A DNA stretch of 64,000 bases from Gammaproteobacteria bacterium Ga0077554 (GCA_001464585.1 LNFF01000032.1:124001-188000); one strand, 5' to 3'; shown: positions 6,539 through 55,076, counted from the stretch's first letter. Numbers and translations are program-made. The notes: generated by a model not told the origin, from the sequence alone.

Positions 6539-6577
6539 GTATCAGTATTTAACGATATAAAATGGAAGAGTAAAGCT

Positions 6578-49416: not shown

Positions 49417-50577
49417 ATGAAAAAAATGCGCCTGACCCTCCTCGATAGCGTTGACACCCTGACCGCCGATCAATGGAATGCGTTGGCGGGTGATACCAAT
49501 CCCTTTTTGCGCCATGAATTTCTTGTTGCGCTGGAACGTCATCAATGCGTCGGTGCAGCGGCAGGATGGTGGCCGCAACATCTGATCGTTGAACATGACG
49601 GCCAACTCATCGGTGCAATGCCGATGTATATGAAAAACAATTCCTACGGCGAGTTTGTGTTTGATTGGGATTGGGCGGATGCCTATCATCGTGCCGGGCT
49701 GCGCTATTATCCCAAGCTGGTGGTGGCTGTGCCTTATACCCCGGCCACGGGGTCGCGCCTGCTACTTGCAGATACACAGCAACGCGCGCAGGTTGCGGAT
49801 CTGCTGATTAGTGGCGCGATAGAGCATGCGCAACGCAGTAATGCCTCAGGTTTGCACTGGCTGTTTACCAACGCTGCGGACACGGCGCATCTGGCGCGGC
49901 ATGGTTTGTTGCAGCGTGTGGGTTGTCAATATCATTGGGAGAATCGGGGCTACCGTGATTTTGATGATTTCCTCAGCCAGTTGTCAGCCGAAAAACGCAA
50001 AAAAATTAAGCGTGAGCGACGTCATGTGAATGATGCGGGCGTAGTGCTGGAGTTGCTGGATGGTCATCAAACCAGCGCGGCGCAATGGGCGATTTTTCAT
50101 GAATTTTATAAATCCACCTTTGACGAAAAAGGCGGCATTGCGTCCTTGACCTTGGAGTTTTTCAAAGAATTGGGAGAAGCCATGCCCGATCAAACATTGC
50201 TGATTATGGCAAGTTATCAGGGCCAGTATGTGGCAGGCTCATTTTTTCTGCGCGGGCGTGATACCTTGTATGGTCGACACTGGGGTTGTACGGCGCAATT
50301 TCATAGCCTGCATTTTGAAGCATGTTATTACCGCGCAATTGAGTATTGCATCGCACAGGGGTTGCAACGTTTTGAAGCGGGCGCGCAAGGCGAACACAAG
50401 ATCAGCCGTGGTTTTTTACCTACTCCTACCTATTCCATGCACTGGATAGCCAATGCGCGTTTTCGTGAGGCGATTGATAATTTTCTGGTGCGTGAAACGC
50501 AATCGATTGAACAGTATATGCACGAACTGAAGCAGCACTCCCCTTACAAAAGCCTTTTTCAATCTCTTGGAGTTTGA
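49417..50577 (+). CDS. FemAB/GNAT-like peptidogalycan-family acyltransferase (DUF482)
   Basis: This 386-residue protein belongs to the DUF482 group, distantly GNAT/FemAB-like. The core shows NPFLRHEFLVALERHQCVG, PMYMKNNSYGEFVFDWDWADAY, RKKIKRERRHVND and FEAGAQGEHKISRGFLPTPTYSMHWI, all recurrent in the family. It lacks membrane segments. The acceptor is unknown; peptidoglycan or aminoacyl-tRNA dependent transfer is proposed for relatives. It starts 26 bp after the PNPOx-like gene and may be co-transcribed with it. Confidence 0.82.
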   Translation: MKKMRLTLLDSVDTLTADQWNALAGDTNPFLRHEFLVALERHQCVGAAAGWWPQHLIVEHDGQLIGAMPMYMKNNSYGEFVFDWDWADAYHRAGLRYYPKLVVAVPYTPATGSRLLLADTQQRAQVADLLISGAIEHAQRSNASGLHWLFTNAADTAHLARHGLLQRVGCQYHWENRGYRDFDDFLSQLSAEKRKKIKRERRHVNDAGVVLELLDGHQTSAAQWAIFHEFYKSTFDEKGGIASLTLEFFKELGEAMPDQTLLIMASYQGQYVAGSFFLRGRDTLYGRHWGCTAQFHSLHFEACYYRAIEYCIAQGLQRFEAGAQGEHKISRGFLPTPTYSMHWIANARFREAIDNFLVRETQSIEQYMHELKQHSPYKSLFQSLGV

Positions 50578-50591
50578 TTTCCCCGGCAGTT

Positions 50592-50654
50592 TGTCATCCC
50601 GAACGTAGTGAGGGATCTTGCTTAAGAAGATTCCTCGCGGTGCTCGGAATGACA
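50592..50654. repeat. Intergenic palindromic repeat, TGTCATTTCGACC family, copy 8
   Basis: It is the shortest copy: TGTCATCCCGAAC ... GCTCGGAATGACA with GAGGGATCTTGC and GAAGATTCCTC inside. It sits 15 bp after the DUF482 gene and could serve as its terminator-like stem. Confidence 0.75.
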
Positions 50655-50762: not shown

Positions 50763-50792
50763 TTGTCTAAACTGAACGGCTGGGGCTATAAT
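50763..50792 (+). promoter_or_regulatory. Candidate promoter of the exopolysaccharide operon
   Basis: TTGTCT (50763-50768) and TATAAT (50787-50792) are 18 bp apart, about 70 bp before ATG 50864. The -10 is a consensus hexamer; the -35 matches three to four positions. It is the best sigma70 candidate in the gap, and a GGGATTTTGAAACAGGG leader follows. Confidence 0.45.
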
Positions 50793-50863
50793 TATAGTAT
50801 GTAGTAATGTAAGAGATCAAAGGGATTTTGAAACAGGGTCAACCACAGTAAAGGGAATTCGCC

Positions 50864-51694
50864 ATGCATATACATACCCCAAAGATTTTTGGTATTGCAA
50901 TCATTCTGTCTTCTTTGTTGTCGCCCGCCCATGCAGCCGTTGTTGATTTGGATCCGCTGCAAGCGGGTGTATACACTGGCGGTGACGGTGTATTGAGCCG
51001 CTGGGTACAGACGAAGTCCTCCTGGCCCGGCGTCAATGGTAGCAGCCCCGGTCTTGAAACTCTTGCCGACCAGGATGCCGCCTTGGCTTTGCCTTCCACC
51101 GATTCAAATATCCTGCGCAGTTTCGAAGGTACAGTTGCTACGATCAATTTCTCTGACGATGTGTACCGTGATAAGTGGGCGGCTACATGGAGTCCTGCAG
51201 GAACGACTCCAGTACCGTTATTCCCCGCCTCCAATGACCCTAATCAGAATGATTTCGCCGTGTCTTTTGCAGGATTCATCGCTATCACCACCCCCGGCGA
51301 ATACAACTTCGGGGTACTTTTTGATGATGCCTTCCGCTTCACGCTGACAGGCGCCAACGGTTCTTATACGATCTTCAAGGATGGGCTGAATCCGCGCGAG
51401 ATCGTTGGATTCGATTCAAACTTCGCCCTCGAAGCCGGAATGTATCAATTTTCCCTGGCCTCATTTGAGCATCTGGAAGCCGGTGTCGTCGCCCTTAACT
51501 GGTGGCATGGCCCAACCACGTCCGACTTCGGAGTCATTCCCCCGGGTAACCTGTTTAGCGCCCTGCCGCCTGTGCCGGAACCTGAGGAATGGCTGCTGTT
51601 TGTGGTTGGGTTGCTGACGCTGGCATGGTATTTCCGGAAAAAACCGTCCACTCTTTCTGTACTCGCCACCCCTGCTTTATCCTCGCAGCCATGA
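50864..51694 (+). CDS. PEP-CTERM sorting-domain exported protein
   Basis: This 276-residue exported protein has a signal peptide (FGIAIILSSLLSPAHA). A beta-rich domain reminiscent of PA14 (ITTPGEYNFGVLFDDAFRF ... VVALNWWHGPTT) follows. A C-terminal PEP-CTERM tripartite signal consists of PVPEPEEW (about 236-243), a hydrophobic helix (LLFVVGLLTLAWYF) and RKK. The signal predicts exosortase processing; no exosortase gene is in the window. Unusually, 16 residues follow the basic cluster. The stop overlaps the pgaD-like start (ATGA), tying this protein to polysaccharide synthesis. Confidence 0.78.
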   Translation: MHIHTPKIFGIAIILSSLLSPAHAAVVDLDPLQAGVYTGGDGVLSRWVQTKSSWPGVNGSSPGLETLADQDAALALPSTDSNILRSFEGTVATINFSDDVYRDKWAATWSPAGTTPVPLFPASNDPNQNDFAVSFAGFIAITTPGEYNFGVLFDDAFRFTLTGANGSYTIFKDGLNPREIVGFDSNFALEAGMYQFSLASFEHLEAGVVALNWWHGPTTSDFGVIPPGNLFSALPPVPEPEEWLLFVVGLLTLAWYFRKKPSTLSVLATPALSSQP

Positions 51695-52062
51695 CACGGC
51701 AACCTCTTGCATCGCTGGGCCATCGCATCGTCCATGCGCTGGCAATTGGTGGCGGCTGGTTTATCTATTTCTGGTTATGGTGGCGCGTCATTTACGTGTA
51801 TGGCCAGGGTTTGAGTCCGCTGGTAGCGCTGTTTCTCGTCATCACCATCATTATCGTACCTACCATTACCCTGATCTGGATCTTGCACAATGTCCGTATC
51901 TTCAAGCGCAAAGGTCTGCGGCGCGGTCGTACCACCACCCAAGACAATTATGTTTCCGACTGGAAAGGACGCCGTGTAACAGCAGACTGGATCAACATGA
52001 AACAGGCGTCGAGCATCGTCATCTCAGTGCGCGAAAACGATAAGCAATACGAGGCAGGATAA
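51691..52062 (+). CDS. pgaD: PgaD-like small membrane subunit
   Basis: This 123-residue protein has two transmembrane helices (about residues 13-38 and 42-68) followed by a basic cytoplasmic segment (FKRKGLRRGRTTTQDN). Layout and size fit PgaD, the partner of the poly-N-acetylglucosamine synthase PgaC that helps sense cyclic di-GMP in E. coli. The sequence is diverged, so identification rests on topology and on the following synthase. ATG 51691 overlaps the PEP-CTERM stop. Confidence 0.65.
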   Translation: MTRQPLASLGHRIVHALAIGGGWFIYFWLWWRVIYVYGQGLSPLVALFLVITIIIVPTITLIWILHNVRIFKRKGLRRGRTTTQDNYVSDWKGRRVTADWINMKQASSIVISVRENDKQYEAG

Positions 52063-52100
52063 CTCTCGCCACAGATACTTCACAACCTAGATAAAAATGC

Positions 52101-53369
52101 ATGGACGCACTCTCGATAATCACATGGATTGACAACAGCCTGTTGTATGCGGCAATGCTGGGTTTCTTTGCCCTGTATCCGATGGTCACCAGCATTATGT
52201 GGATCACGACCTCGATGTTTTTCCGCTGGCGGCAGGAGAAAAACACCACAATGCCGCTCGACACGGCAACCACCTATACGCCGAAAGTGTCGATACTCAT
52301 TGCCGCGCACAATGAAGAGGCCGTTATCGAGGCGTCGCTGAAAGCCGCCCATGCCATCGACTACCCGGACTTTGAGGTGGTAGTAGTGGACGATGGCTCC
52401 ACGGACCAGACGGCGAATATCGTTGCACGTTACCAGCAATCCCACGGCGTTCGTCTGATCCGCAAAACCATTAACGAAGGCAAGGCGATGGCGCTCAACG
52501 ATGCGTTGCCCTGTTTGCGCGGAGAAATTGTGTTGATTCTTGACGCCGATGCTGAACCCGAGCCGCAGGCGCTACGGTATATGGTGCGCCACTTCGAGAG
52601 CGCGCGGGTCGCGGCGGTTACCGGTAATCCCCGTGTTAAAAATGCCACGACGCTGTTATCACGTTTGCAACTCATGGAATTTACCTCCATCGTCAGTTTG
52701 CTGCGCCGCTCGCAACGCGTATGGGGCCGTCTGCTCACGGTATCCGGCGTGGTATCGGCCTTTCGCAAGGACGCCATTCTGGATGTGGGAGGCTTCAGCC
52801 CTGAAATGCCTACTGAAGACATCGAACTGACCTGGAAATTGCAGAAACGTTTTTATGATGTGCGCTACGAGCCGAATGCAGTGATCTGGATGATCGTGCC
52901 GCAAAAGTTACGTGGGCTTTATAAACAGCGCCTGCGCTGGGCGCACGGTTTGATGCAGGTATTGCGCAAACATTACGACATCATGCTGCACTGGAAATAT
53001 CGTCGCATGTGGCCGGTGTATGTAGAGTCGGTGCTCTCAGTGCTTTGGGCGGTATGTTTCGTCGCGCTCACCCTGCTTTGGGGAGTCTCGTTCAGCCTCG
53101 GCCACACACCCATAGGTGCAAACCCATTGCCCAACATCTGGGGCATGCTCATTGCCACCTTCTGTCTGCTGCAATTGCTGGCCGGCGCAGTGATGGATAA
53201 AAAATATGATCCCCATATCATGAAATATTATCCCTACGCGATTTTTTATCCGATCATCTACTGGATGCTGATGTCTGTCACCACGGTGATATCGATGACG
53301 GCGTTGTTCAGGAAACCGGCCAAACAAGCAGTACGCTGGGATACTGCCCGTAATGGCAAAATGGCGTGA
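52101..53369 (+). CDS. pgaC: PgaC-like family 2 polysaccharide synthase
   Basis: This 422-residue processive GT2 synthase has an N-terminal helix, then the GT domain with VVVDDGSTD, LILDADAEP, PTEDIELTW and the QRLRWAHG (QxxRW) motif. Two or three C-terminal helices form the export channel. Best fit is a poly-beta-1,6-N-acetylglucosamine synthase; other beta-linked polymers are possible. It lies 38 bp after pgaD. The domain order matches inner-membrane synthases that secrete while polymerising. Confidence 0.85.
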   Translation: MDALSIITWIDNSLLYAAMLGFFALYPMVTSIMWITTSMFFRWRQEKNTTMPLDTATTYTPKVSILIAAHNEEAVIEASLKAAHAIDYPDFEVVVVDDGSTDQTANIVARYQQSHGVRLIRKTINEGKAMALNDALPCLRGEIVLILDADAEPEPQALRYMVRHFESARVAAVTGNPRVKNATTLLSRLQLMEFTSIVSLLRRSQRVWGRLLTVSGVVSAFRKDAILDVGGFSPEMPTEDIELTWKLQKRFYDVRYEPNAVIWMIVPQKLRGLYKQRLRWAHGLMQVLRKHYDIMLHWKYRRMWPVYVESVLSVLWAVCFVALTLLWGVSFSLGHTPIGANPLPNIWGMLIATFCLLQLLAGAVMDKKYDPHIMKYYPYAIFYPIIYWMLMSVTTVISMTALFRKPAKQAVRWDTARNGKMA

Positions 53370-53375
53370 GGTGAC

Positions 53376-55076
53376 GTGATCACGATGAAAGCAAGGATCG
53401 CGGTGCCCTTATTGCTGGTGAGTCTGTCGGTGCTGTGGCCGGGGTTGTCGTGCGCCGGAATGCGTGAGGATGCCAGGCAGCTTGTCGATCAAAAGAATTT
53501 CGTCGGCGCCTTGGAAAAGTATGACCGGCTGCTGGCCGAAACACCTGATGACGCCGACCTTCTGATCGAAGCTGGCCGCGTCAATGCCTGGGCGGATCGG
53601 CACCAGGAGGCGGTAATAATCTATCAGCGCGTTCTCGTTGTGGCGCCGCAACGCCGCAATGACGTATTGCTGCCGCTGGCATGGCAATTGACCTGGTCGG
53701 GACAGCATCGGGGCGCGATCCCACTATTCCGCGAATCTCTCATCGCTGATCCTGATAATCGCGACGCACGACGCGGCCTCGCCGAAGCACTTAGCGGCGA
53801 CAACCGTCTGGCGGAGGCATTGGGCGAATACCAGAAGCTGATCGCCTCTAATGCCGGTGACCTGCAAGCGCGTCACGGCGAAGCACGCCTGCTGTTATGG
53901 ATGGATCGTTATGCCGAAGCCGAACAGCGTTATCAGGCGATGCTGCGGGAAAATCCCGACGACAAGGAAGCTGCAATTGGATTGGCTCGCACACACAACT
54001 GGAGTGGCCGACATTTTCTCGCGGCACGCGAATATGAAGCCGCTGCCAGAAAATGGCCTGCGGACGAGACCATCAAAACCGACCTGGCGACGGCGCAACG
54101 CTGGGCGGGAGCCGACAACCTTGCTCTGCGCACGTTGAGCGGAATTTCCGGAGACAGCGCCGCGACACTGCGCCGTCAGATCAAGATAGATTCGCTTCGT
54201 GGGCTGCGCTTCGGCGCCACCACGGCTTATGATACCGACAGGCTGCGGGTTAATACCGCAACGCTGGCGTTCCGTTACCCGTTTGATGCAACCCGATTAT
54301 TGCAAACCTCGCTCCGCCGGGCGCAGATCGAACAACGCGGACAGCATGCCGACGGCAAGGAATTACTCGTTTCCTACGGCGACAGGTTTGGCGCTTTCGA
54401 TGCGCCACGCGGGATGCTCTGGCCCTCCGTCAGTGCGGGTATCCGCGACTACGAGGGTTGGCAAACCTTTGCATGGCGCGCCGGTGTAAAGTGGTTGCCC
54501 GCCGATCTGTGGCGAATCGATTTCGACGCAGGTAATGAAGTCATCGAAAACATCCCCTCCGTGCGCAACCACGTCACATTCACCTCTCTTGGCGCAGGAA
54601 CGGAAGTCAGGATTCATCCGCGCATCACCGCTGCCGCCAGCCTTGGCGTGGGGCGCTTCGATGATGGAAATATCCGTAATCGCTTGCGGGCACGCATCGA
54701 GGGCTTGGTGCTGACCCAACCACGCATCACGCTGGGTTGGGAAGGTTTACGTTTTTCCAACAGCAAACCCGACATCGTGCGTGGCTACTACAACCCGGAA
54801 AGTTATATCGAAAACAAATTGATTACAAGTATCGAAACTACACGCTGGGACTGGAATTTCCAGGCCAGAGCAGGCTTGGGGCGGCTCAGCGAAGAACCGT
54901 CGGGAATAGGCCGTGGAATCTATTCCTGGGAACTTCATGCCTGGCGCTATATCAGGGATTCAACAAACCTGCGCCTGTTTGTCGGGCGCTCCGATTCCGC
55001 CTTCAACTCCAACTCAACATTCGGCAGCGGATACTCGCGTAGCTACGGCGGCATCGATCTAACCATCATCTTCTGA
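53376..55076 (+). CDS. TPR and YaiO-like outer-membrane beta-barrel protein (PgaA analogue)
   Basis: This 566-residue exported protein has a signal peptide (PLLLVSLSVLWPGLSCAG) and tetratricopeptide repeats over about residues 30-260 (DARQLVDQKNFVGALEKYDRL, EARLLLWMDRYAEAEQRYQAM). The C-terminal half, of about 300 residues, alternates in hydrophobicity as in the YaiO/PgaA outer-membrane barrels and ends GSGYSRSYGGIDLTIIF with a terminal phenylalanine. It would export the polymer made by the PgaC-like enzyme. GTG 53376 is used with GAGGTGAC upstream; ATG 53385 is an alternative. It is 6 bp after the synthase gene. Confidence 0.78.
   Translation: MITMKARIAVPLLLVSLSVLWPGLSCAGMREDARQLVDQKNFVGALEKYDRLLAETPDDADLLIEAGRVNAWADRHQEAVIIYQRVLVVAPQRRNDVLLPLAWQLTWSGQHRGAIPLFRESLIADPDNRDARRGLAEALSGDNRLAEALGEYQKLIASNAGDLQARHGEARLLLWMDRYAEAEQRYQAMLRENPDDKEAAIGLARTHNWSGRHFLAAREYEAAARKWPADETIKTDLATAQRWAGADNLALRTLSGISGDSAATLRRQIKIDSLRGLRFGATTAYDTDRLRVNTATLAFRYPFDATRLLQTSLRRAQIEQRGQHADGKELLVSYGDRFGAFDAPRGMLWPSVSAGIRDYEGWQTFAWRAGVKWLPADLWRIDFDAGNEVIENIPSVRNHVTFTSLGAGTEVRIHPRITAAASLGVGRFDDGNIRNRLRARIEGLVLTQPRITLGWEGLRFSNSKPDIVRGYYNPESYIENKLITSIETTRWDWNFQARAGLGRLSEEPSGIGRGIYSWELHAWRYIRDSTNLRLFVGRSDSAFNSNSTFGSGYSRSYGGIDLTIIF

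Follow-up and report, generated by a model that had tools for sequence, protein, structure and literature searches.

How might a Pga-like exopolysaccharide operon work without PgaB, and what could an exosortase-sorted protein be doing at its head? Export of poly-N-acetylglucosamine (PNAG) in E. coli is regarded as requiring deacetylation by PgaB, and the roles of exosortase targets are mostly unknown. Both questions are raised by four genes within a 64,000-nucleotide stretch of Gammaproteobacteria bacterium Ga0077554 (GCA_001464585.1, LNFF01000032.1:124001-188000), hereafter the window. A first-pass annotation had read them as a variant Pga-like export system led by a PEP-CTERM protein, which might either take the place of PgaB in the periplasm or decorate the polymer at the surface. 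Our analysis argues, with moderate confidence, for a PgaB-less Pga-like exopolysaccharide operon whose first product, here identified as a PA14 protein, tethers the polymer at the surface. The features are as follows.

50864..51694, plus strand: PEP-CTERM/PA14 gene, first in the operon (276 aa; intact open reading frame)
51233..51565, plus strand: PA14 domain (about residues 124-234)
51569..51640, plus strand: PEP-CTERM sorting tag (residues 236-259: PVPEPEEW, hydrophobic helix, RKK)
51691..52062, plus strand: gene for a PgaD-like two-helix membrane protein (123 aa; intact; ATGA overlap with the PEP-CTERM gene)
52101..53369, plus strand: gene for a PgaC-like processive GT2 synthase (422 aa; intact; 38-bp gap after pgaD)
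53376..55076, plus strand: gene for a PgaA-type TPR and 16-stranded outer-membrane porin (566 aa; GTG start; 6-bp gap after the synthase gene)
53448..54194, plus strand: TPR superhelix of the porin (about 250 aa)
54201..55073, plus strand: 16-stranded beta-barrel domain of the porin (4y25 match)
50763..50792, plus strand: candidate sigma-70 promoter TTGTCT-18-TATAAT (10 of 12 matches; weak, with a site count near chance)

The overlap and the two short gaps agree with the first-pass annotation, and none of the four open reading frames is degraded. The ratio of nonsynonymous to synonymous substitution (dN/dS) is 0.09-0.16 for the PEP-CTERM gene, 0.11-0.21 for pgaD, 0.04-0.06 for the synthase gene, and 0.09-0.12 for the porin gene, with some synonymous distances saturated. 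All four genes are thus under purifying selection, the PA14/PEP-CTERM surface protein diverging fastest among the four products.

Conservation of the gene order in relatives had been proposed as a check, and the order PEP-CTERM/PA14, PgaD, synthase, TPR-barrel recurs in 11 of the 12 loci of the synthase clade. Across the 369 class genomes, the synthase matches separate into one set at 69-100% identity (the window clade) and another at 35-42% (the canonical level). The window clade is monophyletic with a support of 1.0 in a FastTree phylogeny of eight members; four further members at 58-63% identity, from the order of the Thiobacillus-like genome, were left out of the tree and share the four genes and their order. 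The complete order is found in the window and in G002, G005, G006, G373 (Thiobacillus sp. 65-1059), G374 (UWPOB_RUBRI2), G162, G541, G644, G614, and G584, where the contig ends within the porin gene, and so spans Thiobacillus-like, Rubrivivax-like, and other lineages. Moreover, the PEP-CTERM/PA14 family (E < 1e-40) occurs in four of the five class genomes that contain the synthase clade vs none of the other 364 (p 7e-9; p 1.5e-5 when counted as two family-level lineages).

Equally constant is the absence of PgaB. No pgaB adjoins the window operon, and PgaB is encoded next to the synthase in 0 of 12 clade loci vs 17 of 20 canonical-level loci (p 2e-6), all 17 of which have PgaA and PgaB beside the synthase. 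The three canonical-level exceptions are an orphan pgaC-pgaD pair (L084), a locus with an unresolved neighbourhood (L094), and one that branches outside both groups (L101). The orphan pair (G346, L084 6564-8425) lacks an adjoining pgaA or pgaB, and a complete canonical operon lies elsewhere in that genome. Whole-genome searches of eight clade genomes with TIGR03938 found no full-length PgaB (best match 94 bits, below cut-off), while three genomes with canonical operons, used as positive controls, gave 789-848 bits; in G541, G644, G614, and G584, the check covered the surroundings of the locus. The window genome itself contains neither PF14883, the C-terminal domain of PgaB, nor a full-length TIGR03938 match. 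Together with the conserved order and the exosortases described below, this supports the proposed variant Pga-like system without PgaB.

The Pga parts of the operon are all divergent, each scoring below its own curated cut-off. Nevertheless, TIGR03937 (PgaC/IcaA) is by far the best family for the synthase (404.8 bits; cut-off 422.3), and the motifs DDGSTD, DADAEP, TEDIEL, and QRLRW are intact. The clade lies on a long branch beside canonical PgaC and has DADAEP (DADAAP in one member) where canonical synthases usually have DGDALL. Singly, the PgaD-like protein reaches only about 12 bits against the PgaD profile, below threshold. In a profile-profile comparison (hhalign), the clade PgaD aligns with 18 canonical PgaD sequences at 95% over 115 columns, spanning both helices and the cytoplasmic tail, vs 6.5% for a reversed-sequence decoy. 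On this comparison, the second gene encodes a PgaD homologue.

The fourth product had been described as a YaiO-like barrel, an identity that we reject: the window porin has no match to TIGR04390 or PF19413 (YaiO), and its model, with a predicted local distance difference test score (pLDDT) of 79, shows a TPR superhelix followed by 16 strands. It matches TPRs, PGA_TPR_OMP (76 bits; cut-off 367), and the PgaA barrel PF21197 (24.4 bits; cut-off 27), the last matched by all four clade porins scanned. The model aligns with PgaA (4y25) at a TM-score by target of 0.75, BcsC and PelB also scoring high, and a barrel-only profile run against the whole PDB has 4y25 as its sole sequence match (E 8e-5). 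The TPR domain of E. coli PgaA comprises residues 32-515 (about 480), of which 220-515 are enough to bind PgaB (PMC9384988). TPR length varies within the clade (the porin has 992 aa in G162 and 709 aa in G272), so a short TPR is not a clade-wide rule. Barrel net charge was considered as a sign of polymer charge and proved uninformative, as clade and canonical values overlap. In G002 (L033 6275-7977), the porin gene changes reading frame near 6544-6556, through either a real frameshift or an assembly error.

What the machine makes bears on why PgaB might be dispensable. One possible explanation, short of likely and compatible with surface tethering, is that the product is not poly-GlcNAc and that a changed substrate, for example another UDP-sugar, makes PgaB unneeded. 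The synthase score below the PNAG-synthase cut-off, the clade-wide DADAEP/DADAAP in place of DGDALL, and the long branch fit such a change; against it, PgaC/IcaA remains the best family by far, and the TED and QRxRW motifs are conserved, as is the PgaA-type barrel. About equally tentative is the idea that an unmodified, fully acetylated polymer is exported without a PgaB step and is caught at the surface by an operon-encoded, exosortase-anchored PA14 lectin. If true, this would constitute a deacetylation-independent route through a PgaA-type porin.

The first gene encodes a signal peptide, a PA14 domain, and a PEP-CTERM tag. All parts of a PEP-CTERM protein are found in the window copy, namely the N-terminal hydrophobic signal and the C-terminal PEP motif, helix, and basic tail. 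Its TIGR02595 score of 15.9 bits lies just below the cut-off of 16, other family members score higher, and six of seven members match PF07589. PF07691 (PA14) is matched by all seven members scanned (best E 4.4e-5), the window copy alone giving 14.1 bits (cut-off 24). A profile of seven PEP-CTERM proteins finds the PA14 domain protein 6qdi in the PDB with E 2.6e-10 and RsgI3 (6qe7) with 1.3e-5. Within the paired-acidic motif of PA14, D154 is invariant in 13 of 13 family members, and position 155 is D in 11 and E in two. These profile matches place the PEP-CTERM protein among the lectin-like PA14 proteins, a new identification; PA14 and the sorting tag are its only matches, and none to a deacetylase or hydrolase was found. 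In G002 (L033 3577-4584), the PEP-CTERM gene reads through about 60 aa beyond the usual end.

An exosortase elsewhere in the genome had been another proposed check, and the window genome has two, XrtA (368 bits; cut-off 208) and XrtB (418 bits; cut-off 275). Of the clade genomes examined, only G002 (85% complete) was without an exosortase. G162 encodes, besides XrtA, the VPLPA-specific XrtD (568 bits; cut-off 400), and the PA14 protein there has a C-terminal VPLPA tag (32 bits; cut-off 25.35). Judged by motif and family, sorting tag and sortase agree: VPLPA with XrtD in G162, PEP with XrtA and XrtB in the window genome. G272, a congener of G162, has XrtA only and no XrtD; between nuoN and pgaD, all that is left of the PA14 protein is a 41-aa fragment (49% identity), and pgaD, the synthase gene, and the gene for the 709-aa porin are intact despite this decay. 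This single case, from draft genomes, shows that sortase and target are absent together while the synthesis and export genes are kept.

In the mechanism that we propose, the PgaC-like synthase and its PgaD-like partner would polymerise a hexosamine or hexose chain and move it through the inner membrane, and the PgaA-type porin would export it without a dedicated deacetylase or hydrolase step. The PA14 protein would be secreted, its C-terminus being held and processed by exosortase, and its lectin-like domain could then bind nascent or released polymer at the surface and keep it attached to the cell. The polymer would thereby stay as bound capsule or floc material. Our case for retention draws on the kind of domain, the sorting tag, the loss in G272, and the precedent of PepA, whose overexpression in Aquincola shifts exopolysaccharide out of the soluble fraction and into the cell-bound one (PMC9850573).

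Several observations weigh against tethering as proposed. In almost every member, the PA14 gene opens the operon, a position that could point to a tighter role. In G001, of the window's own genus, the PA14 protein sits beside a different GT2, so its partner specificity is loose. Structure prediction of the PEP-CTERM protein, suggested by the first-pass annotation, was run and gave a model too poor for use (pLDDT 48.6); Foldseek returned mixed matches for it, none with E ≤ 0.001, PA14 entries being among the top 20. Finally, the orthologues in G644, G614, and G584 have no recognisable PEP motif, though these genomes keep XrtA; exosortase processing may therefore not be universal. These three orthologues retain the PA14 domain, the C-terminal hydrophobic helix, and the basic tail, and gave no matches to sorting-tag families. 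At L121 7217-8113, L123 3278-4213, and L122 2856-3716, a bare PGT stands where the PEP motif would be (SAPGT, GLPGT, and SMPGT).

Could the PA14/PEP-CTERM protein instead replace PgaB, as an essential periplasmic or outer-membrane guide that passes the polymer to the TPR domain of the porin? PA14 linkage at 11 of 12 clade loci and the lack of PgaB from all of them would agree with this, as would a C-terminal helix that would keep the protein at the inner membrane by the synthase until it is cleaved. PA14 domains are also capable of sugar binding, and the TPR domain of E. coli PgaA docks PgaB (PMC9384988). We nevertheless regard such a substitution as unlikely. The PA14 protein has no catalytic domain, and G272 keeps the synthase, PgaD, and porin with the PA14 gene decayed. 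Further, the PA14 family occurs without the clade synthase in G001 (best synthase match 30%), and a second copy in G162 has no Pga-like synthase within the surrounding 20 kb. Because of the G272 loss with the machine intact and the occurrence in G001, the PA14 protein probably tethers rather than substitutes for PgaB, and of the two roles first suggested for it, holding or decorating the polymer at the surface fits better, surface retention itself being inferred. From the G001 context and the second G162 copy, the family's genomic association with polymer synthesis is a loose one. The intact G001 homologue (L037 8039-11170) faces a convergent gene for another type of processive GT2 and a 310-aa gene whose porin match is marginal. 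The second G162 copy (L059 8651-10352) has a VPLPA-like tag, and the protein encoded immediately before it likewise has a VPLPA-like tail.

Comparably doubtful is a conventional Pga system whose pgaB lies scattered elsewhere, in which de-N-acetylation is needed and supplied in trans by a stand-alone deacetylase. The PgaB-like matches in the window genome are two such enzymes, of 265 and 392 aa, on other contigs, which resemble the N-terminal, deacetylase half of PgaB only; its C-terminal domain, as mentioned above, is absent. The small deacetylases do not track the operon: they are found in G001, G003, G004, and G007, which do not have it, and among clade genomes, G374, which has it, gave no TIGR03938 match and G272 just a weak one, near XrtA. 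Improbable too is a first gene for an unrelated surface protein merely sharing the promoter, for while it is the fastest diverging of the four, lost in G272, and found elsewhere in G001, its co-occurrence with the synthase and its tight adjacency in distant lineages speak against this.

Upstream of the operon, a search for a regulatory motif found the sequence poorly conserved beyond the genus, and the -10 element of the candidate sigma-70 promoter is not kept in G002. An RpoN -24/-12 promoter, as in PepA, was rejected, as the window has fewer matches than shuffled sequences; the nearest such site, at 50351, lies within the gene upstream of the operon. Between a FemAB-like gene and the operon lies an imperfect palindrome resembling repetitive extragenic palindromic elements (window 50592-50654; 28-nt arms, 75% complementary), one end of which, GTCATTCCGAGC, occurs four times in the window with one mismatch allowed (0.27 expected). 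A true YaiO gene adjoins the operon in relatives only (scanned in G005; G006 has the same layout). There it belongs to a second, convergent cluster of a YaiO barrel, a HEAT-repeat protein, and a different GT2 (L039 3800-7521, L040 12160-15824), which in G003 occurs without the operon.

A clade that keeps PgaC-like, PgaD, and PgaA-type parts and is PgaB-less wherever examined would test the reach of the deacetylation requirement. Exosortases, in turn, gain a target that is predicted to contain a sugar-binding domain and is encoded beside a defined polymer machine, and the G272 loss and the PEP-less tags offer natural variants for comparison.

Among known systems, the window operon is closest in content to PgaABCD/HmsHFRS, combining a PgaC-like GT2, just under the family cut-off, with a PgaD-family partner and a TPR plus 16-stranded PgaA barrel in one operon. 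The product of the known system is partly de-N-acetylated beta-1,6-GlcNAc, and its PgaC-PgaD pair is activated by c-di-GMP. It differs in the absence of PgaB, the order PA14-D-C-A instead of A-B-C-D, a porin TPR about half as long in the window copy, a synthase that forms a separate clade and is altered around DxD, and the additional exosortase-sorted PA14 protein. For environmental bacteria, a pga layout has been described in which pgaC is rearranged and neither pgaB nor pgaD could be detected (PMC7112194, S4 Fig iii). From this part of that source, the window clade likely equals or overlaps the group: pgaB is absent and pgaC rearranged in both, whereas pgaD, undetected there, is found here by profile comparison, and the S4 Fig iii account mentions no PEP-CTERM/PA14 gene. 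The EmbRS psc1 cluster of Rubrivivax was set aside as a different, Wzx/Wzy-type cluster. The PepA flocculation proteins (PMC9850573) are likewise PEP-CTERM proteins with a proposed part in polymer retention, but they form a different family, only the tail of the window protein's relatives matching NF033554, and pepA is located upstream of prsT rather than within a Pga-like operon. The PA14 lectin domains of 6qdi, RsgI3 (6qe7), and the MpAFP adhesin are the same domain by profile search; unlike these, the window PA14 is joined to an exosortase tag and encoded within a synthase operon. Our literature search returned no paper linking PEP-CTERM with PgaC, PNAG, or poly-N-acetylglucosamine. Compared with these systems, the divergent PgaD, the near-constant PA14/exosortase gene, the matching of tag and sortase, and the natural loss are new here.

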